DNA of 64,000 nucleotides from Streptomyces sp. SCSIO 30461 (GTDB lineage Bacteria; Actinomycetota; Actinomycetes; Streptomycetales; Streptomycetaceae), in NCBI RefSeq assembly GCF_037023745.1, contig NZ_CP146101.1, positions 3,650,001 to 3,714,000 of the forward strand, read 5' to 3'. Numbering within the stretch: position 1 is the first letter of the stretch; each line of letters opens with the position of its first letter. A model generated the notes under the pieces. It was not told the DNA's origin. It saw only the letters and a program-made list of their open reading frames with translations, and did not search any database. The position numbers and the translations under genes are program-made. Of the stretch, positions 13,546-56,636 are shown in pieces.

Positions 13546-14511
13546 GTGCCCGTCCCGATCATCATCGACTGCGATCCCGGACACGACGACGCGATCGCCA
13601 TCCTGCTCGCCGCCGGCGACCCCGCGGTCGAGTTGCTGGCGATCACGACGGTGGCCGGCAACCAGGTGGTCGAGAAGACCACCCTGAACGCCCGTCGTAT
13701 CTGCACTGTCTCCGCCATCACCGACGTCCCGATCGCCGCCGGCTGCGCCCACCCGCTCGTGGGACCCCGCGATGTGGCCGATGACGTGCACGGGCACTCC
13801 GGGATGGACGGCCCGAGCTTCGGCGAGCCCACCGTGAGCGCTGTCCCCGAGCACGCCGTCGATCTGACGTACCGGATCCTCACCGGCCACCCGGAGCCGG
13901 TCACCCTTGTCCCGACCGGCCCTTTGACCAATATCGCCCTGCTGCTGACCCGCTATCCCGAGGTGGCGCCTCACATCCGGGAAATCGTCCTCATGGGAGG
14001 TTCCACCGATCGGGGGAACCGCACTCCCGCGGCGGAGTTCAACATGTACGTGGACCCCGAGGCCGCCGACATCGTCTTCCGCAGCGGTCTGCCCGTGACC
14101 ATGTGCGGGCTCAACGTCACCCACCAGGCGCTGGCCACACCCGATGTCCTCGCCCGCTTCGAACGACTCGGCACCGAGCTCGGCGGCATCTGCGTGGACC
14201 TGATGACGTTCTTCGCCGCCAGTCACCGCAAGCTGTGGGGCTTCGAGGCTCCGCCTCTCCACGATCCGGTGGCGGTGGCCAGGGTCATCGATCCCGCGAT
14301 CGTCCACTGCGCCGAGGCGAGTGTGGCCGTCGAACTACGGGGGGCGCACACGCGCGGGGCGACCGTCGTGGACCTGGACCGGTATCTGGACCGGCCGGTG
14401 AACGCCCGGGTGGCGCTCGGCCTCGATCGTGAGAAATTCTGGGACCGGATCGTCACGGCGGTCGGCAGGCTCGGCGAACGTGCGGTCAGGGCCCGGCAGG
14501 CCGGACCCTGA
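13546..14511 (+). CDS. Inosine/uridine-preferring nucleoside hydrolase
   Basis: 321 aa from a GTG with GAGGAG seven bases upstream. The calcium-binding signature of the family is intact: IIDCDPGHDDAIAILLA near the N-terminus, PTGPLTNIALLL, the ribose-contact segment EFNMYVDPEAA and a late PPLHDPVAVA. It cleaves the N-glycosidic bond of ribonucleosides to base plus ribose (salvage, cytosol). It occupies the place where a cvnD gene would be expected. Confidence 0.93.
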   Translation: MPVPIIIDCDPGHDDAIAILLAAGDPAVELLAITTVAGNQVVEKTTLNARRICTVSAITDVPIAAGCAHPLVGPRDVADDVHGHSGMDGPSFGEPTVSAVPEHAVDLTYRILTGHPEPVTLVPTGPLTNIALLLTRYPEVAPHIREIVLMGGSTDRGNRTPAAEFNMYVDPEAADIVFRSGLPVTMCGLNVTHQALATPDVLARFERLGTELGGICVDLMTFFAASHRKLWGFEAPPLHDPVAVARVIDPAIVHCAEASVAVELRGAHTRGATVVDLDRYLDRPVNARVALGLDREKFWDRIVTAVGRLGERAVRARQAGP

Positions 14512-14675
14512 CCGGCGGTACTCGGCTCCCGGTCGATCAGCGTGTCCGAGCGTCTCAACGCCCGGGCCGGCAGGCCGCAAACGCGGTGGTGGACGATATC
14601 GGCGGACTGCGAGAATGCCTGTTCGAGCCGGGAGGCTCGGGTTGGTGGAAACCTGAACGAACGAGGTGCGACGTC

Positions 14676-29397: not shown

Positions 29398-29453
29398 GTT
29401 CCGCATAGCGGTCCACGCTGTTGCGGGGGCCTGGCGGTGGGCGGATTCTGGAC

Positions 29454-31991
29454 ATGATGAAACCGGGCCGATGGGGCGCCGTGAGTGTGCGGATGTCAGC
29501 CGAGAACGTCGATTTCCGTGGCCCCCTGGACATCACCAGGGCGGCCACGTTGGTGCTCGACAACCGGTCGATGGTCATCGGCTGGAGTCCCGCGGCTCAG
29601 GAACTGCTGGGCTATCGGCCCGAGGATGTCGTGGGCCGGCCGCTGGAGACATTCCTGACCTATGCCTCAGAGGGTTCGGTGGCCGACGTGTCCGGCGGAT
29701 CCGTGCCACCACCCGGGGCCCCACGGCTCGACGAGGGGGATGTGTGCGTCGCGGTCCACCGGGACGGTCGGCGGATGACGCTCGTAGCCGCGGTCTGCCC
29801 GCTGACCGGTGCGGTCGGGGCGGGCAAGGTCCTGGTGGTGGCGGAACACGAGCGGCTCAGGCTGTGGAAGTCCCGCCTCGCCCTGCTGAACGGCCTGGCC
29901 ACCCAGTCTCCGGTCGGTCTCGCCATCCATGACACCGACCTTCATCTGATGTGGTGCAATGCCGCGTACGAAGGCGAGATCGGTATGCCGTTCGCCGCGT
30001 TCCGCGGCATGCGGGGCTCCGATCTGTACCCCGACGGCAGGTTCATCTCGCCGGGCTACCCGGAGTTGCTCGACGACGTCCTCGGCCATGTGCTGAAGAC
30101 CGGTGAGGCGCTGCTCGATCTGCACTTCCGCGGTGAGCAACCCAGTGATCCCGGCGTCGAGCACCTGTGGTCCTGCTCCTACTACCGGCTACAGGACCCG
30201 GACGGCTATGTGTTCGGCGTCTGCGAGGACGCCTTCGACATCTCCGAACGCTACGAAGCCCAAAGGCAGCTGAATCTGCTCGTGGAGGCCAGCCGTCGCG
30301 TCGGTACGACGCTGGACGTCGTCGCCACGACGGAGGAACTGGCGGAGGTGGCGGTACCGGCGTTCGCCGACCGGGTCGACATCGACATCGTCGCCGCGGT
30401 CCTGGAAGGGGAAGTGCCAGGGGTGCTGGGCCCGGACTCGGTGCTGGTCCGCACTGCCGGGCGCTGTGTCGAGACCCGGACCGGCGACAGCGGCGCAACC
30501 GGCGGGATCAGGGGCACCGGGCACGCCGTGCCGGCCGAGTCGCGGCCCGCGCGCCCGGTGACGTACCCCAGCGGGTCGCCGCAGCACCGCAGCCTCGCCT
30601 CGGGAGGTCTGGTGCTGGAGGAGGACACCCTGGTGGTGCCGTTGCGGATCGGCGGCAGCCCGCTGGGCCTCGTCAGCTTCGTCCGCGGTACCGGGCCGGG
30701 CGTCTTCGACAGGGGCGCGATCGCACTGGCGGACGAACTGGTCGGCAGGGCAGCGGTGTCCATCGACAACGCCCGGCGCTTCGCCCGCGAGCGCGCGGCG
30801 GCCCTCGCTCTCCAGCGCCGGCTGCTGCCGCGCCATCTGCCGCCGAACTCGGCGGTGGATCTCGCCTACCGCTATCTGCCCACGGACGACGTCACCGGTG
30901 TGGGCGGTGACTGGTTCGATGTCATCCCGCTGTCCGGAACCCGCGTCGGACTTGTCGTCGGCGACGTGGTGGGGCACGGGGTCCATGCCGCGGCCACCAT
31001 GGGCCGGTTGCGGACCACCGTACGGGCACTCGCCCCGCTCGACATGCCCCCCGACGAACTCCTCACCCGGCTCGACGACCTTGTGGTCCAGGCCGCCGAG
31101 GACCGTCCGGGCCCCGGAATCGACACCACCGGTCCCACGGCGCACTCCCGGTTCACGGGCTCCGCCGGGCCCGCTGCGACTGCGGGAACCCTTGGGTTCA
31201 CCGACAGTGAGGACGTGGCCACCGGAGCCACCTGCCTGTACGTGGTCTACGACCCGGCATCCCGGCACTGCACCATGGCCCGTGCCGGCCATCCGCCGCC
31301 GGCCGTCGTACACCCCGACGGGCGGGTCACCATCCTCGACCTGCCCGCAGGCCCGCCACTGGGCCTGGGAGGACTGCCGTTCGACTGCTTCGACGTCGAA
31401 CTTCCCGTGGGTAGCCTGATGGCGCTGTTCACCGATGGACTGGTGGAGTCCCGGGACCGGGACGTCGACGAAGGACTGGCCACCCTGAAGCACGTGCTCA
31501 CCGGCAGCAGCGGGTCACTCGGCGATATCTGCGACCGGGTGGTGGCCGCGCTCCTGCCGGACGGCACGACCAGCGACGACTCGGCCCTGCTGCTGGTGCG
31601 CACCCGTGAGCTCGACTGCGACAAGGTCGCGACCTGGGACCTGCCGGCCGAGCCCGCGGCGGTCGGACGGGCTCGTGAGTCGGTCGCGGAGCGGCTACGG
31701 GCCTGGGGGATCGACGACTTGGTGTTCCCCACCGAGCTGATCGTCAGCGAACTGGTCACGAACGCGATACGGCACGGGGAGGGTCCGCTGCACCTTCGCC
31801 TGATCCTGGACCGCGTGCTCGTGTGCGAGATCGCCGACGCCGCGCACACCTCTCCCCATCTGCGCCACAGCACGCCTGACGACGAGGGTGGGCGCGGCTT
31901 GTTCATCGTGGCCCAGCTCGTCCAGCGTTGGGGGACCCGCTACGGGGCGTCCGGGAAGACCATTTGGACCGAACAGGCCCTTTCGTCATAG
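29454..31991 (+). CDS. PAS-GAF-SpoIIE phosphatase with C-terminal HATPase (anti-sigma-kinase-like)
   Basis: About 845 aa; in-frame GTG/ATG codons from 29421 to 29490 are alternative starts, none with a clear ribosome site. Domains in order: PAS (about 20-130), second PAS (about 150-270), GAF (about 285-460, with an insert), SpoIIE phosphatase (about 475-720: GVGGDWFDVIPL, VVGDVVGHGVHAA, RAGHPPPAVV, LFTDGLVESR, SDDSALLLVRT), and RsbW-like HATPase (about 735-840: LIVSELVTNAIRHG, DEGGRGLFIVAQL). It joins a signal-sensing phosphatase and an anti-sigma-type kinase in one chain. Cytosolic; signal unknown. Confidence 0.9.
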   Translation: MMKPGRWGAVSVRMSAENVDFRGPLDITRAATLVLDNRSMVIGWSPAAQELLGYRPEDVVGRPLETFLTYASEGSVADVSGGSVPPPGAPRLDEGDVCVAVHRDGRRMTLVAAVCPLTGAVGAGKVLVVAEHERLRLWKSRLALLNGLATQSPVGLAIHDTDLHLMWCNAAYEGEIGMPFAAFRGMRGSDLYPDGRFISPGYPELLDDVLGHVLKTGEALLDLHFRGEQPSDPGVEHLWSCSYYRLQDPDGYVFGVCEDAFDISERYEAQRQLNLLVEASRRVGTTLDVVATTEELAEVAVPAFADRVDIDIVAAVLEGEVPGVLGPDSVLVRTAGRCVETRTGDSGATGGIRGTGHAVPAESRPARPVTYPSGSPQHRSLASGGLVLEEDTLVVPLRIGGSPLGLVSFVRGTGPGVFDRGAIALADELVGRAAVSIDNARRFARERAAALALQRRLLPRHLPPNSAVDLAYRYLPTDDVTGVGGDWFDVIPLSGTRVGLVVGDVVGHGVHAAATMGRLRTTVRALAPLDMPPDELLTRLDDLVVQAAEDRPGPGIDTTGPTAHSRFTGSAGPAATAGTLGFTDSEDVATGATCLYVVYDPASRHCTMARAGHPPPAVVHPDGRVTILDLPAGPPLGLGGLPFDCFDVELPVGSLMALFTDGLVESRDRDVDEGLATLKHVLTGSSGSLGDICDRVVAALLPDGTTSDDSALLLVRTRELDCDKVATWDLPAEPAAVGRARESVAERLRAWGIDDLVFPTELIVSELVTNAIRHGEGPLHLRLILDRVLVCEIADAAHTSPHLRHSTPDDEGGRGLFIVAQLVQRWGTRYGASGKTIWTEQALSS

Positions 31992-43593: not shown

Positions 43594-44648
43594 TGGATCC
43601 GGCGCAGGGCGAGGTGAACCCGTACGCCGGGCGGCCGTCCGGCCTGATCGGCGAGCAGATCGCGGGCTACCGCGTGGAGCGTGAGATCGGACGCGGCGGC
43701 ATGGCCGTCGTGTACCAGGCGCGGGACCTGCGCCTGGACCGCACTGTGGCACTCAAACTGCTTGCCCCGGAGCTTGCCCGCAACGACACCTTCCGGCGCC
43801 GCTTCACCCATGAGTCCCGCGTGGCCGCCGCGATCGACCATCCCCATATCGTGCCGGTCTTCGAGGCGGGCGAGACCGAGGGCATCCTGTACATCGCGAT
43901 GCGCTATGTCTCCGGTCTCGACCTGCGCGCCCTGCTCGACCGCGACGGACCGCTGCCCACGGCCACGGCCATCCGCATCACCGCTCAGGTGGCGTCAGCC
44001 CTCGACGCGGCACATGAGCACGACCTGGTCCACCGGGACGTCAAGCCCGGCAACATCCTGGTCGCCAAGGGCACCGACAGCGACCACCCCGAGCATGTCT
44101 ACCTCACCGACTTCGGGCTGACGAAGAAGTCGCTGTCGCTCACTGGATTCACCACCGTCGGCGAATTCGTCGGCACCCTCGACTACGTGGCACCGGAGCA
44201 GATCTCCGGTCGCCCGGTGGACGCTCGATGCGACCTCTACAGCCTTGCCTGCGTGGTGTACGAGGCCCTCACCGGCAAGCCGCCCTTCCAGCGTGACGAG
44301 GACATCGCGCTGCTCTGGGCACACCAGTACGACCAACCGCCTCTCCTGAGCGAGCGACGCCCCGGCAGCGAGCCCGGACTCGACGGTGTGCTCGCCAAGG
44401 CGCTCGCGAAGGTGCCGGACGACCGTTTCGACTCCTGTCTCGAATTCGTCGCGGCCATGCGTGCCGGCTCGGCGGGCGGGGGCGGTGTCGGCAGTCACCC
44501 GCAGACTCGGGTGGACACCCTGGTCGCGGTGTCCCCGGCGTCCACCCCGCCCCCGGTGTATCCGAATCCTCCGCCCGGCCCGCCGGACTGGGCCGCGCCG
44601 GTGTTCCGCCGGGCCGCGGTGGGCGGAGCGGATCCCGCGAACGCCTGA
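43593..44648 (+). CDS. Hanks-type Ser/Thr protein kinase, soluble
   Basis: 351 aa. Kinase domain about 25-290: glycine loop EIGRGGMAVVYQARD, Lys55 in VALKLL, Glu in RFTHESRVAAAI, catalytic loop VHRDVKPGNIL (Asp149, Asn154), DFG at 173-175 (TDFGLTKK), activation segment to GTLDYVAPEQ, and DLYSLACVVYEALTGKPPF. The tail is Pro-rich (PASTPPPVYPNPPPGPPD) with no membrane helix or PASTA repeats, so it is a cytosolic kinase. It faces a SpoIIE-phosphatase/HATPase gene, which could act in an opposing way. Confidence 0.94.
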   Translation: MDPAQGEVNPYAGRPSGLIGEQIAGYRVEREIGRGGMAVVYQARDLRLDRTVALKLLAPELARNDTFRRRFTHESRVAAAIDHPHIVPVFEAGETEGILYIAMRYVSGLDLRALLDRDGPLPTATAIRITAQVASALDAAHEHDLVHRDVKPGNILVAKGTDSDHPEHVYLTDFGLTKKSLSLTGFTTVGEFVGTLDYVAPEQISGRPVDARCDLYSLACVVYEALTGKPPFQRDEDIALLWAHQYDQPPLLSERRPGSEPGLDGVLAKALAKVPDDRFDSCLEFVAAMRAGSAGGGGVGSHPQTRVDTLVAVSPASTPPPVYPNPPPGPPDWAAPVFRRAAVGGADPANA

Positions 44649-50462: not shown

Positions 50463-51842
50463 CTATCTCTCCTCCGTCTTCCGCGGCACGCACCGCCACG
50501 CGAGCCCCGCGGCGGCCAGATAGGCCAGCGCTCCCACGGCCATGCTGGTGCGCAGTCCCGCACCGTAGCCGGCCGCGGTGGCGAGCAGCGTGCCGCCCAG
50601 TGCCACGCCGGTGGCGCTGCCGATCTGCCGTGCCGTGTTGAACAGGGCGGACGCGGTCCCCGAGTATCCCGTCGGCGCAGCGCCCATCACCGTGGCGGTC
50701 GAGCCGGTGAGGGCGAAGGAAGTGCCGAATCCCGCGGCCATCATGGGTGCCACGAGCAGCGGATACGCTGGGTCGTCCCCCGCGGCGACCCAGCCCGCCA
50801 ACCCCATTGCGGCCAGGAGCATCCCGGAGATCACCAGGGGGCGGTGACCGGTGCGACGACTCAACCGCCCCGACAGTGCGGAGGCGAACATCGTCATCGC
50901 CACCGCCGGGAACAGCGCTGCTCCCGCATCGATGGCGCTGTAGCCGCGCTGGTGCTGGAAGTCCAGGCTCGCGGTGAAGACCATGCCGTAGAAGGCGAAG
51001 TTGAACAGCAAGCCGATGGCGGCACCACCGCTCGTCGCACGCGAGCGCAGCATTCCCAGGGGCAGCGCGGGTGACCGGGCGAGCCGTTCGCGTACCGCGA
51101 AAGCCGCGGTGGCCAGCACCGTCAGCCCCGCCCCGGCGAGCACGAAAGGATCGGACCAGCCGCGCCGTCCGAATTCGTTGAGCGTCGCGGTCAGCGCCGC
51201 CACCGCCGTCACGACCGCCAACTGGGCGGGCCAGTCCAGTGCCCGTGCCGGGTGCCGGGGTGAGCGCGAGACCAGGCGCAGCGTCAGCGCGATACAGACG
51301 ATGCCGACGGGCACATTGATGAGGAACACCCAGCGCCAGCCCACGGTGGACACGATGAGCCCGCCCAGCAAGGGTCCCGCCGAAGCGGCGATTCCGGCCA
51401 GCGACCCCCAGAGGCCGAACGCCCGGGCACGGCTGATCTTGTCGGGGTAGGCCTGCTGGAGCAACGCCAGCGATCCGGGCACGATCAGCGAGGCGCCGAG
51501 CCCTTCCAGAAGCCGGGCGGCGACCAGGGCCGGGGTGTTCTGCGCGAGCGCGCACGCGGCCGACGACGCGATGAACACCCCCACGCCGACACAGAAGATT
51601 CGGCGGTTGCCCAGACGGTCGCCCAGCGTGCCACCGGTCATCAGCAGCCCCGCGAACACCATCGTGTATCCGTCGGTGATCCACTGGATCGCGGGGAGCG
51701 AGGCCGACAGGTCGTGGCCGATGACCGGTACGGCCACATTGATGATCGTGACATCCAAGATCACCATGAAGTATCCGGCGCCCGCGGCCAGCAGCGGCCC
51801 CCACGAATGTCTCCCCGGTGCCGGGGTCGGCTCGGACGACAC
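50463..51842 (-). CDS. MFS drug-efflux transporter, DHA2 (14-TMS) family
   Basis: 459 aa from GTG 51842 (GGAG eight bases upstream). A longer frame begins at TTG 51920, whose ttgaca looks more like a -35 box. Fourteen membrane segments expected. Motif A-like GTLGDRLGNRRIFCVGV, QWITDGYTMVFAGLL, motif C region GLWGSLAGIAASAGPLLGG, and SASLPAIQW. A proton-driven exporter of drug-like compounds. No regulator adjacent; the small exported protein cassette is divergent 183 bp away. Confidence 0.92.
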   Translation of the reverse strand: MSSEPTPAPGRHSWGPLLAAGAGYFMVILDVTIINVAVPVIGHDLSASLPAIQWITDGYTMVFAGLLMTGGTLGDRLGNRRIFCVGVGVFIASSAACALAQNTPALVAARLLEGLGASLIVPGSLALLQQAYPDKISRARAFGLWGSLAGIAASAGPLLGGLIVSTVGWRWVFLINVPVGIVCIALTLRLVSRSPRHPARALDWPAQLAVVTAVAALTATLNEFGRRGWSDPFVLAGAGLTVLATAAFAVRERLARSPALPLGMLRSRATSGGAAIGLLFNFAFYGMVFTASLDFQHQRGYSAIDAGAALFPAVAMTMFASALSGRLSRRTGHRPLVISGMLLAAMGLAGWVAAGDDPAYPLLVAPMMAAGFGTSFALTGSTATVMGAAPTGYSGTASALFNTARQIGSATGVALGGTLLATAAGYGAGLRTSMAVGALAYLAAAGLAWRCVPRKTEER

Positions 51843-52025
51843 GTCCTCAACTCCATCCTGCAGGGAGATCGCCACCGAAAGCCACGATAGGCGAAATGTG
51901 AACTCTCGACGATTTGTCAAGCCCCGAGTCTCAGCGGCGTGACGGGAATTGCTCGACGGGGGTTAATCGAGGCATGAGTTCACGTGAATCACGTGGACGT
52001 TCTCATCCAGTGAAGGAGAAACATC

Positions 52026-52304
52026 ATGGCTCGGACTTCCCGCACGCGGCGTCTTGTCGTACTGAGTGCCTCGACCGCTCTGGCCGCGGGAGGCGTGCTG
52101 CTTCCCACGAGCGCTTTCGCGGTCACGGATCCGTCACATGCGGTGACCGCGAAGGCGGCCGCTCAGGGTGACCACTGGCGTCACGGAAAGCACGGCAAGC
52201 GCGACGGCGGAGGAAACCAGGGCGTCGGAAGGGGAAACGTCGTCATCATCATCGGAAATGGAAATACGGTGCCGATCAACAATGGCACCGTCAACAATCG
52301 CTGA
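52026..52304 (+). CDS. Small exported protein with His/Gly/Asn-rich tail
   Basis: 92 aa, AAGGAG seven bases before the ATG. Signal peptide RRLVVLSASTALAAGGVLLP, cleavage near AFAVTD. The mature part has a basic His-rich middle (QGDHWRHGKHGKRDGGGNQG) and a hydrophobic/Asn tail (VVIIIGNGNTVPINNGTVN) with alternating pattern that would suit beta-strand stacking. No Cys. Not a chaplin. First gene of a three-gene cassette of exported proteins, 28 bp before the next. Confidence 0.8.
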   Translation: MARTSRTRRLVVLSASTALAAGGVLLPTSAFAVTDPSHAVTAKAAAQGDHWRHGKHGKRDGGGNQGVGRGNVVIIIGNGNTVPINNGTVNNR

Positions 52305-52332
52305 ATTTCCTGAGTTGCAGGGAGAAGGAATC

Positions 52333-52806
52333 ATGTCTCGTAATATCAACACCCACGCCCTTTCCCGGCCCAAGCGTCCGCGCTTCCGCCTCGTGGCGGT
52401 GCTCGCATCGGCCACGATGATCGGCGGGGCGGCCTTCTTTCCGGCCACTGCCATGGCCGACCCGAAGCCCGCCTCGCCCGTGGTCAGCCTCGCCGGCCAT
52501 CACCCTGAGGTCAGGGCCGGCACGGGTGGTGCCGGTGGTGACGGGATCTTCGGTGGCACGGGTGGTGCCGGTGGTGACGGGATCTTCGGTGGCACGGGTG
52601 GTGCCGGTGGTGACGGGATCTTCGGCGGCAAGGGCGGCAAGGGTGGCACCGGAGTCTTCGGTGGCAAGGGCGGTGCCGGTGGTGACGGGATCTTCGGTGG
52701 CACGGGTGGTGCCGGTGGTGACGGGATCTTCGGCGGCAAGGGCGGCCCAGGCGGTAACGGGGTCTTCGGCGGCACCGGCGGTCCGGGCGGCGTCGGCATC
52801 TTCTGA
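52333..52806 (+). CDS. Exported glycine-rich repeat protein (GGxGGxGGxGxF)
   Basis: 157 aa, GGAGAAGGA before the ATG. Signal peptide FRLVAVLASATMIGGAAFF, cleavage about AMADPKP. After a short spacer (PASPVVSLAGHHPEVRAG) the rest is eight 12-residue repeats GTGGAGGDGIFG / GKGGKGGTGVFG, ending in GVGIF. This resembles PE_PGRS-like and collagen-glycine-like arrays, with a Phe every 12 residues. Nothing else: no anchor, no Cys. Likely an extracellular structural or adhesive fibre. A 14-bp hairpin follows the stop. Confidence 0.82.
   Translation: MSRNINTHALSRPKRPRFRLVAVLASATMIGGAAFFPATAMADPKPASPVVSLAGHHPEVRAGTGGAGGDGIFGGTGGAGGDGIFGGTGGAGGDGIFGGKGGKGGTGVFGGKGGAGGDGIFGGTGGAGGDGIFGGKGGPGGNGVFGGTGGPGGVGIF
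52524..52803. repeat. 36-bp tandem coding repeat (8 units)
   Basis: DNA underlying the 12-residue glycine repeats. Several units are nearly identical at base level (the ggtgccggtggtgacggg core recurs), so recent expansion by slippage or recombination is likely, and copy number may vary among strains. Confidence 0.85.
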
Positions 52807-52856
52807 TCCCGGCCGTCCGATGGTCCGGCCCCTCACGTCCGGACCATCCCGCCCCT

Positions 52857-52888
52857 CATGGAGGCCCCGGTCTGCCGGGGCCTCCATG
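52857..52888 (+). terminator. Hairpin after the glycine-rich gene
   Basis: Perfect 14-bp stem (catggaggccccgg and complement), loop tctg, 51 bp after the stop. It could end or attenuate the cassette transcript before the third gene. Confidence 0.8.
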
Positions 52889-52939
52889 CACACGGCGGGT
52901 GAGAACAGCACCCCCCGGACCCACGAAATGGAGACCCTC

Positions 52940-53470
52940 ATGTCCGGAAACCTGTGGCAGCGTCCTGCCATCCTCATGACGACCGCGGCGGCCCTCGCCC
53001 TCGGCTCTGCGTGCGCCGCGACCCCGTCGCACAACTCCCCCACACCACCTCGTGCCGCTCGCGGCAACCATGCGGCTCATGGCACGGACAGCGGCGGGGA
53101 CGGTCTGCTCGGCCGACCGGGTGAGCCCGGAAAGCCCGGTGTGGGAGGGCGTGGCGGTGACGGCGGGCGCGGTGGCGACGCGCTCTTCGGGGGAACGGGA
53201 GGGCGTGGCGGTGACGGCGGTATCGGCGGACGGGGTGGCGACGGACGCGGTTGCCTGCGGCTGAGCGACCTGCCGGACAAGCCGAAGCAGAGACTCACGG
53301 TCGGGGACAGGGTGCGGATCGTGATGGTGGTCCTGTACGGGGACGCTACGAGCGCCGAAGTCGCGAGAAAGTACCAGCTCTCACAGAACGACGTCGACAC
53401 CTGGAAGGAGCAGTTCCTCGACGGGGACTGGTTCGCCCTGGCCGGTGTGGGACCGCCCTTCTCCTCCTGA
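52940..53470 (+). CDS. Exported glycine-rich protein fused to a transposase-type HTH
   Basis: 176 aa; ATG 52940 has GGAG six bases upstream. Signal-like start (LWQRPAILMTTAAALALGSA) with Cys31, imperfect lipobox. Then a Gly-rich tract with collagen-like GRPGEPGKPG and GGRGGDGGRGGDALFGG units (about 70-110). The last about 65 residues (DKPKQRLTVGDRVRIVMVVL, GDATSAEVARKYQLSQNDVD, TWKEQFLDG) match the helix-turn-helix of IS3/IS-type transposase OrfA proteins. A DNA-binding domain on an exported glycine-rich protein is unexpected; either a recent fusion, or export does not occur. The frame has no stop or frameshift at the junction. Confidence 0.75.
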   Translation: MSGNLWQRPAILMTTAAALALGSACAATPSHNSPTPPRAARGNHAAHGTDSGGDGLLGRPGEPGKPGVGGRGGDGGRGGDALFGGTGGRGGDGGIGGRGGDGRGCLRLSDLPDKPKQRLTVGDRVRIVMVVLYGDATSAEVARKYQLSQNDVDTWKEQFLDGDWFALAGVGPPFSS

Positions 53471-55625: not shown

Positions 55626-56636
55626 TCAGTGGGCCGGCGGAGTGTGGTCGGAGGGCACCGCCTCTTCCGGGGCGACCGGCTCGGGCGCCGTGCCCTCGCC
55701 GAACGGATGCCCGCCGAGCGACGCACGGTCGTGGGGCGCGAGCCAGTTCTCCAGGTTCGGGCCCACCGGCACGATCCCCGTCGGGTTGATGTCCCGGTGC
55801 ACCTGGTAGTAGTGCCGCTTGATGTGGTCGAAGTCCACCGTGTCGCCGAAGCCTGGAGTCTGGAACAGGTCCCGCGCGTATGCCCAGAGCAGCGGCATCT
55901 CCGCCAGCTTCAGCCGGTTGCACTTGAAGTGACCGTGGTAGACGGTGTCGAAGCGCACCAGCGTGGTGAACAGCCGCACGTCCGCCTCGGTGATCGTGTC
56001 GCCCACGAGGTAGCGGGATCGTTCGAGTCGCTCGGAGAGCCGGTCGAGCCGGTCGAACAGACGCCGGTAGGCCTTGGCGTACGACTCCTGAGAGCCGGCG
56101 AATCCCGCTCGGTAGACGCCGTTGTTCACGTCCTTGTACACCACGTCGTTCACCGCGTCGATCTCCGCGCGCAGCGCGGGCGGATACAGGAGCGGTGCCC
56201 CCTCGCGGTGGTAGGGCTCCCACTCCACCGACATGTCGATGGTGATCTGCGGGAAGTCGTTGGTCACCACCTGGCCCGTCGGTACGTCGACGATCGCGGG
56301 GACCGTGATGCCCCGGTCGTACCCCGGGTCGCGGGCGAAGTACGCCTCCTGGAGCCGTTCGATGCCGAGCACCGGATCGCGTCCGCCCGGGTCGAGGTCG
56401 AACGTCCAACTGCGCTTGTCGTGGGTGGGCCCAGCGATGCCCATCGGCAGCACTCGCTCGAGCCCGAGCAGCCGCCGCACGATCACCGCCCGGCTCGCCC
56501 ACGGACAGGCGCGGCTGACCACCAGGCGGTACCTCCCCGGCTCCACCGGGAAGCCGTCGCGTCCATCGGCGGTGATCCGGGTGGTGAGATACCTGCTGTC
56601 GCGCGCATACTCGCCACCCGGTTCCACATAGGTCAC
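55626..56636 (-). CDS. Glutathionyl/mycothiol-hydroquinone reductase-type GST
   Basis: 336 aa from GTG 56636. GST-Xi family: N-terminal thioredoxin-like half with catalytic Cys in VVSRACPWASRAVIVRRLL, THDKRSWTFD, VTNDFPQITIDMSVEW; C-terminal helical half with FDRLDRLSERLERSRYLVGD and CNRLKLAEMPLLWAYARDLF. In other bacteria it reduces glutathionyl-hydroquinones; actinobacteria lack glutathione, so mycothiol is the likely partner. C-terminal tail is Pro/Glu-rich. Its 3' end abuts the truncated exonuclease. Confidence 0.92.
   Translation of the reverse strand: MTYVEPGGEYARDSRYLTTRITADGRDGFPVEPGRYRLVVSRACPWASRAVIVRRLLGLERVLPMGIAGPTHDKRSWTFDLDPGGRDPVLGIERLQEAYFARDPGYDRGITVPAIVDVPTGQVVTNDFPQITIDMSVEWEPYHREGAPLLYPPALRAEIDAVNDVVYKDVNNGVYRAGFAGSQESYAKAYRRLFDRLDRLSERLERSRYLVGDTITEADVRLFTTLVRFDTVYHGHFKCNRLKLAEMPLLWAYARDLFQTPGFGDTVDFDHIKRHYYQVHRDINPTGIVPVGPNLENWLAPHDRASLGGHPFGEGTAPEPVAPEEAVPSDHTPPAH

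Follow-up and report, generated by a model that had tools for sequence, protein, structure and literature searches.

A conserved Streptomyces cassette of predicted exported repeat proteins in variant form, with a shared upstream element and a candidate LuxR-type regulator

The chaplins and rodlins of Streptomyces are under the control of sigma-BldN and coat the aerial hyphae, and chaplins are said to occur in all streptomycetes (PMC4255298, in the part of that paper available). The PGRS domains of PE_PGRS proteins are built of Gly-rich triplets with Phe at the turns and accompanied by C-terminal functional modules; a polyglycine-II sandwich with 3-4 triplets per helix has been proposed as their fold (PMC9436101, likewise in its available part). 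By likely role and by sequence style, respectively, these are the nearest kinds to a cassette of three small genes, P1, P2 and P3 (Table 1), in a 64,000-nucleotide stretch of Streptomyces sp. SCSIO 30461 (contig NZ_CP146101.1, positions 3,650,001 to 3,714,000), the whole of which we call the window; the cassette lacks those defining features of either kind that were tested. As with chaplins and rodlins, these are small, apparently exported Streptomyces proteins, several per genome, with what looks like a dedicated regulator, but they differ in their Gly repeats, in a candidate regulator that is LuxR-type rather than an extracytoplasmic function (ECF) sigma factor, and in a distribution that falls short of all streptomycetes, at 27 or more of 392 genomes (compared with the same available part of PMC4255298). 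No literature on such a cassette or regulon appeared among the matches listed, in a search whose coverage leaves out most subscription papers.

As judged from sequence, the window carries a variant form of a cassette of exported repeat proteins that is conserved in Streptomyces, and the usual third member of that cassette is not P1 but P4, a predicted exported Cys/Asn/Gly-repeat protein encoded downstream of P3 in relatives and lacking from the genome of SCSIO 30461. A P3 profile search of the 392 Streptomyces genomes matched 45 at E<=1e-4, of which 27 (E<=1e-20) were counted as strong and 18 weak partial matches were dropped; a P2 search matched 36 at E<=1e-8, 25 of them strong (E<=1.3e-40). 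Because few candidates were scored per genome (9 of about 100 for P3, 8 for P2 and for P4), the genome counts are lower bounds: strong relatives of P3 occur in at least 27 genomes, those of P2 in at least 25 and those of P4 in at least 25. P2 is present in 24 of the 27 P3 genomes, as is P4 in 24; the three without a strong P2 include one in which the end of P2 falls at a contig end (G070) and one with a weaker P2-like match (G220), and the only genome with a strong P2 and no P3 (G274) carries its P2 pieces at contig ends.

The genes are also physically linked. In the 29 of 34 loci that were parsed, P2 sits 83-199 nucleotides (nt) upstream of P3 in 26 and P4 comes after P3 in 24. The exceptions to linkage are one genome with P2 1.67 Mb distant (G012, L046) and two loci that start at contig ends (L047, L054); P4 is missing from L054, from G242 (L071), from Actinacidiphila (L074) and from the window, and L073 stops at a contig end. 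Among the five loci left out of parsing, L066, L067 and L068 look intact on reading, L070 starts at a contig end, and the P3 of L072 is short and probably degraded. Two loci, L063 and L064, are identical copies in one genome. Among 220 further genomes of the family, P3 is matched at E<=1e-8 in 12 and strongly (E<=2e-26) in nine, including two outside the genus (g20, and G505, whose stretch is the same as that of Actinacidiphila glaucinigra), with the remaining three matches covering the helix-turn-helix (HTH) part only. The P3 domain is present on four Streptomyces plasmids as well, and on the two that were read P2-P3-P4 is complete, the products being 'hypothetical proteins' on the annotated one. 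A tblastn search of the plasmids with P2 gave no match, though P2 adjoins P3 on both plasmids read, probably because masking strips the low-complexity query. Of 12 pairs of relatives compared, 11 show less nonsynonymous divergence (dN) than synonymous divergence (dS), with ratios of 0.12-0.97, which in these sequences is a mark of purifying selection on the cassette proteins; the peak of 0.97 comes from one pair, for the C-terminal domain of P3, where counts are small, and the twelfth pair (L063/L127) is nearly identical and uninformative.

The first-pass annotation had proposed P1-P2-P3 as a dedicated surface-structure system that should stay together beyond one strain. The trio is not borne out as a conserved unit, and P1 is rejected as a regular cassette member: it lies near P2-P3 only in the window and in G242, 1.2 kb upstream of P2 in the latter, among the 392 genomes. 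Conservation beyond one strain does stand, for P2 and P3 are linked across species and the set is not strain-specific. Since this linked pair has its own conserved upstream element, and the proteins are predicted to be exported and fall outside the known surface-protein families, a dedicated system is likely, in a composition other than the one first suggested.

Table 1. Positions of the cassette genes, their parts and associated features within the window
Feature	Position	Strand	Description
Inverted-repeat element GTCAAGCCCCGAGTCTCAGCGGCGTGACG, P1-type variant	51916..51944	+	Right half degenerate; probable regulator site
TTAATCG	51963..51969	+	Placed like the conserved TTACTTG/TTAATTG after the element in relatives (alignment by eye)
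P1	52026..52304	+	92 aa; predicted signal peptide, then His/Gly/Asn-rich mature part ending NVVIIIGNGNTVPINNGTVNNR
P2	52333..52806	+	157 aa; predicted signal peptide, linker, eight GGxGGxGGxGxF repeats
P2 repeat part	52519..52803	+	Residues 63-157
Hairpin	52857..52888	+	Perfect 14-bp stem, 4-base loop; P2-P3 intergenic stretch z -4.28
P3	52940..53470	+	176 aa; hydrophobic N-terminus up to Cys25, Gly-X-Y/GGX stretch, C-terminal HTH-fold domain
P3 C-terminal domain	53252..53440	+	Residues 105-167, helix-turn-helix fold
Ser/Thr kinase	43614..44612	+	76% identical to kinase after P4 in many cassette loci

At 22 of 22 other P2 loci read, the pattern GTCAAGYCMCGA-N5-CGGRACRTGACC lies 152-254 nt upstream of the P2 start, with three mismatches or fewer, as an inverted repeat GTCANGTYCCG / CGGRACNTGAC. 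At two mismatches or fewer it is found in 25 of the 28 cassette genomes (the 27 P3 genomes and G274) as opposed to none of 12 others, and a reversed-pattern control gave 0/40. The window copy has four mismatches to this P2-type pattern, scores 18.8 where the best of 600 random window stretches reaches -0.3, and is one of only three sites that the relaxed pattern finds in its genome, the other two being before a predicted membrane protein and before an SbnA-like gene. The element, scored above the best of the 600 random window stretches, lies within 350 nt upstream of 24 of 30 P1-type genes (window included; 30 of 41 rows), and several of these genes are in cassette-less genomes, so that the regulon appears to be wider than the cassette. 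Copies away from P2 occur in 18 of the 28 cassette genomes by our own count of rows, and the 28 downstream regions that were read hold small exported proteins (12), no clear gene (10), a Ser/Thr kinase (2), a P450-like gene (2) or a small protein with RIRRLVLKIVTA (2), gene names being our own reading and two of the regions (L184, L185) holding P2 or P2-like genes.

Several observations attach to individual copies of the element. The P450-like genes, so named by us, are of 545 residues and follow the element in L172 (G070) and L175 (G233). The small conserved protein of L173 (G078) and L178 (G197) carries PWA..MA.PSF.ILS in addition to RIRRLVLKIVTA and may be a peptide precursor. In L204 (G242), element copies precede an SbnA-like gene and lie close to a divergent nonribosomal peptide synthetase (NRPS)-like gene, near the LuxR-type gene and a PAS/PP2C gene, possibly a biosynthetic cluster within the same regulon. 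In the window, a DHA2-type MFS exporter gene (50463-51920, - strand) is divergent from P1 across the element, and the TTAATCG on the P1 side is a possible -10 region. At 14485-14513 there is a strong palindrome, GTCAGGGCCCGGCAGGCCGGACCCTGACC, whose likeness to the element is due to chance or to its being a hairpin.

The candidate for a protein that reads this element is a LuxR/GerE-type protein of 76 aa that consists of a GerE domain only and whose gene is near the cassette in many loci; in SCSIO 30461 it is at C1:4209303-4209527, outside the window and 507 kb from the cassette. At 69% identity or more, all 28 cassette genomes encode it and one of 22 others does (p 3e-13, shared ancestry ignored), and the lone positive among the 22 (G016) is also the sole P1-type match there, that gene carrying the element. 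On two of the four P3-bearing plasmids the gene lies about 6 kb from P3; the other two do not carry it. The 76-residue protein is the likely regulator of the cassette. Its pairing of a LuxR-type DNA-binding domain with a palindrome, where binding is predicted here, recalls the OsdR/DevR regulons, but the element differs from the OsdR consensus, AGGGCCGATCGGCCCT, and the protein lacks a receiver domain (PMC5069765, in its available part).

The reading of the three genes as same-strand open reading frames was confirmed in position and strand. P1 and P2 each begin with what reads as a Sec-type signal peptide, as had been claimed, and are preceded by GAAGGAGAA and GGGAGAAGG, respectively; the P3 start codon is preceded by GGAG. 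Only 28 nt separate the end of P1 from the start of P2, so that P1-P2-P3 may be a single transcript. A G+C hairpin is found in the P2-P3 gap of all 20 parseable loci (of 23), window included, and may limit read-through, so that P2 would exceed P3. The proposed absence of chaplin, rodlin and SapB relationships also holds, with no match of P1, P2 or P3 to these families in Pfam or NCBIfam (E<=1); Pfam gave no family match at all for P1 and P2 at E<=1, and NCBIfam matches of the three proteins are all below cut-off.

The regularity noted in P2 is exact over eight 12-residue repeats with Phe at every twelfth residue, encoded by a 36-bp unit in 7.5 copies with 84% matches. It is more than chance, since relatives in other genomes retain the GGX design and dN is below dS. 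One of five AlphaFold models, the best, is a beta-solenoid, the other four being less confident, and we do not trust it; a PDB sequence search with P2 returned low-complexity matches only. P2 shares with mycobacterial PGRS domains its GGX triplets and the Phe at turns, but in the window Phe occurs at every turn and so is not confined to one edge (PMC9436101, as available). P2 further differs from PE_PGRS proteins in having no PE domain match (Pfam, E<=1), with an ordinary signal peptide instead, and in that the module of P3 is on a separate protein (same source).

A P1 search gave 41 rows in 28 genomes, many of them signal peptide only: the P1 signal peptide is common to a family of small, apparently exported proteins with highly diverse mature parts, which include Asn runs (L083, G274), Asn-Thr/Gly-Asn repeats (L085, G236) and a Ser-rich part (L090, G403), all with the element, as well as Thr/Lys-rich parts (L098, L100). 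A uniformly low-complexity regulon is rejected, as only 5 of the 23 proteins examined have a composition entropy under the 5% point for ordinary proteins. In G130 (C33:46151-48004) a P1 relative of 60% identity and a weak P2-like match (E 2e-9) lie about 1.1 kb apart, with no P3 in the genome.

The genes themselves are observed, as are the extent to which they are conserved and linked, the upstream element that they share and the co-occurrence with the LuxR-type protein. From these we hypothesize, at a little less than even confidence, that a set of exported proteins under LuxR control would assemble outside the cell. The LuxR-type protein would probably bind the inverted repeat GTCA-N-GTYCCG-N6-CGGRAC-N-TGAC and turn on the cassette plus other small exported proteins. 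P2 would probably be the main structural subunit, a rod or sheet of Gly-X-X repeats that forms the bulk of the extracellular assembly, its copies associating via one Phe-bearing turn per repeat. P3 would probably be a less abundant anchor or adaptor that ties the assembly to the cell, with an N-terminal Cys that could be lipidated, a collagen-like stretch as spacer, and a HTH-fold domain that would face the exterior and act as a binding module, not as a transcription factor. P4, if present, would be a disulphide cross-linker, and P1 here an extra small component, P1-type proteins in general being strain-specific additions. Alternatively, but improbably, the set may be a secretion or competition programme of effectors, carriers or metal binders that are made with specialised metabolites and are not structural. 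The element before an SbnA-like gene in SCSIO 30461 and in G242, in the latter close to an NRPS-like gene, would fit such a programme, as would the His-rich members L164 and L169 and the P450-like genes of L172 and L175 (again under our own names); however, P2 is a pure repeat with no plausible active part, and the most constant members, P2-P3, have no enzyme domain.

The character of P3 bears on both the extracellular assembly and a second alternative. The earlier description of P3 as a Gly-rich stretch with an extra domain stands, with the correction that the extra domain has a helix-turn-helix fold, which is odd for a protein that appears to bear an export signal. Its residues 105-158 match Pfam DUF1153 at 25.8 bits, above the 23.5 cut-off, and HTH_Tnp_1 below cut-off; the best structural match is 2jrt, of the DUF1153/SciP kind. 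A PDB sequence search with P3 gave a weak match to 2oa4 (E 0.017), and a profile of three P3 sequences gave matches up to E 1 that are mostly chance, with 2jrt at 0.5. The domain thus resembles DUF1153 and the CtrA inhibitor SciP by profile and structure, but follows an apparent export signal and a spacer rich in Gly, and scores 18.9 bits against a cut-off of 100 for the NCBIfam SciP equivalog. Phages gave no P3 match among 50,697 records, and the sole match in PHROGs is weak (E 0.006) and to an unknown-function family. The spacer has Gly-X-Y triplets, including GEPGKPG, as do bacterial collagen-like proteins, but in the window only about nine are uninterrupted and most are GGX; Pfam collagen gave no P3 match at E<=1. 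Because the hydrophobic N-terminus terminates in LGSAC, P3 could be a lipoprotein or carry an ordinary signal peptide; the Cys is at residue 25-27 in 27 of 28 P3 sequences (absent from L057), and a G-[ST]-A-C context is also compatible with signal peptidase I.

DUF1153/SciP and transposase HTH domains bind DNA, and as the P3 domain is closest to these it might be a DNA binder, either a membrane-tethered regulator with a cytoplasmic HTH or an extracellular tie of cells to extracellular DNA. We consider this distinctly improbable: the collagen-like stretch and Cys residues before the domain fit an outside location, and the domain is neutral to acidic (net charge -9 to +1 in 28 sequences), which is not decisive given that the SciP relative 2oa4 likewise has acidic helix residues. 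That the whole consists of repeat proteins of little function, spread by plasmids under loose selection, as its occurrence in only 27 or more of 392 genomes, the four plasmids, the near-identical copies in G393 and the NBC_01340 plasmid and a short, probably degraded P3 in G325 might suggest, is very unlikely given that gene order, the upstream element and the positions of Cys are all conserved, that dN is lower than dS in all but one of the 12 pairs, and that the set co-occurs with a single regulator.

Within the proposal of a LuxR-controlled extracellular assembly, it is tempting to speculate on a bolder and rather doubtful form: a regulon, in part plasmid-borne, whose stand-alone LuxR-type protein would command a palette of P2, P4 and P1-type proteins, the last with Asn-, Ser-, His- or Thr/Lys-rich parts, all held to the cell by P3, as a second exoskeleton besides chaplins and rodlins, with a transposase/SciP-type HTH domain turned extracellular binding module in P3. 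If true, there would be streptomycetes that build a surface layer with no kinship to chaplins and rodlins and controlled by a small switch of its own, and an HTH fold would have been relocated outside the cell. The pair of regulator and site, with its short gene list, is concrete and open to deletion and testing, and P2, a natural protein of 12-residue Gly repeats, might find use as a material.

Three further genes of the window have relatives, or possible counterparts, beside cassette or LuxR-type genes elsewhere. The Ser/Thr kinase of Table 1 is weak as a cassette-specific partner, as a similar kinase occurs in 13 of 22 cassette-less genomes. The gene at 55626-56636 (- strand) has relatives in G034 (L202) and G254 (L207), in both cases adjoining the LuxR-type gene. 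A PAS-containing protein is encoded at 29421-31991 (+ strand), and PAS/PP2C-type proteins flank the cassette in many relatives.
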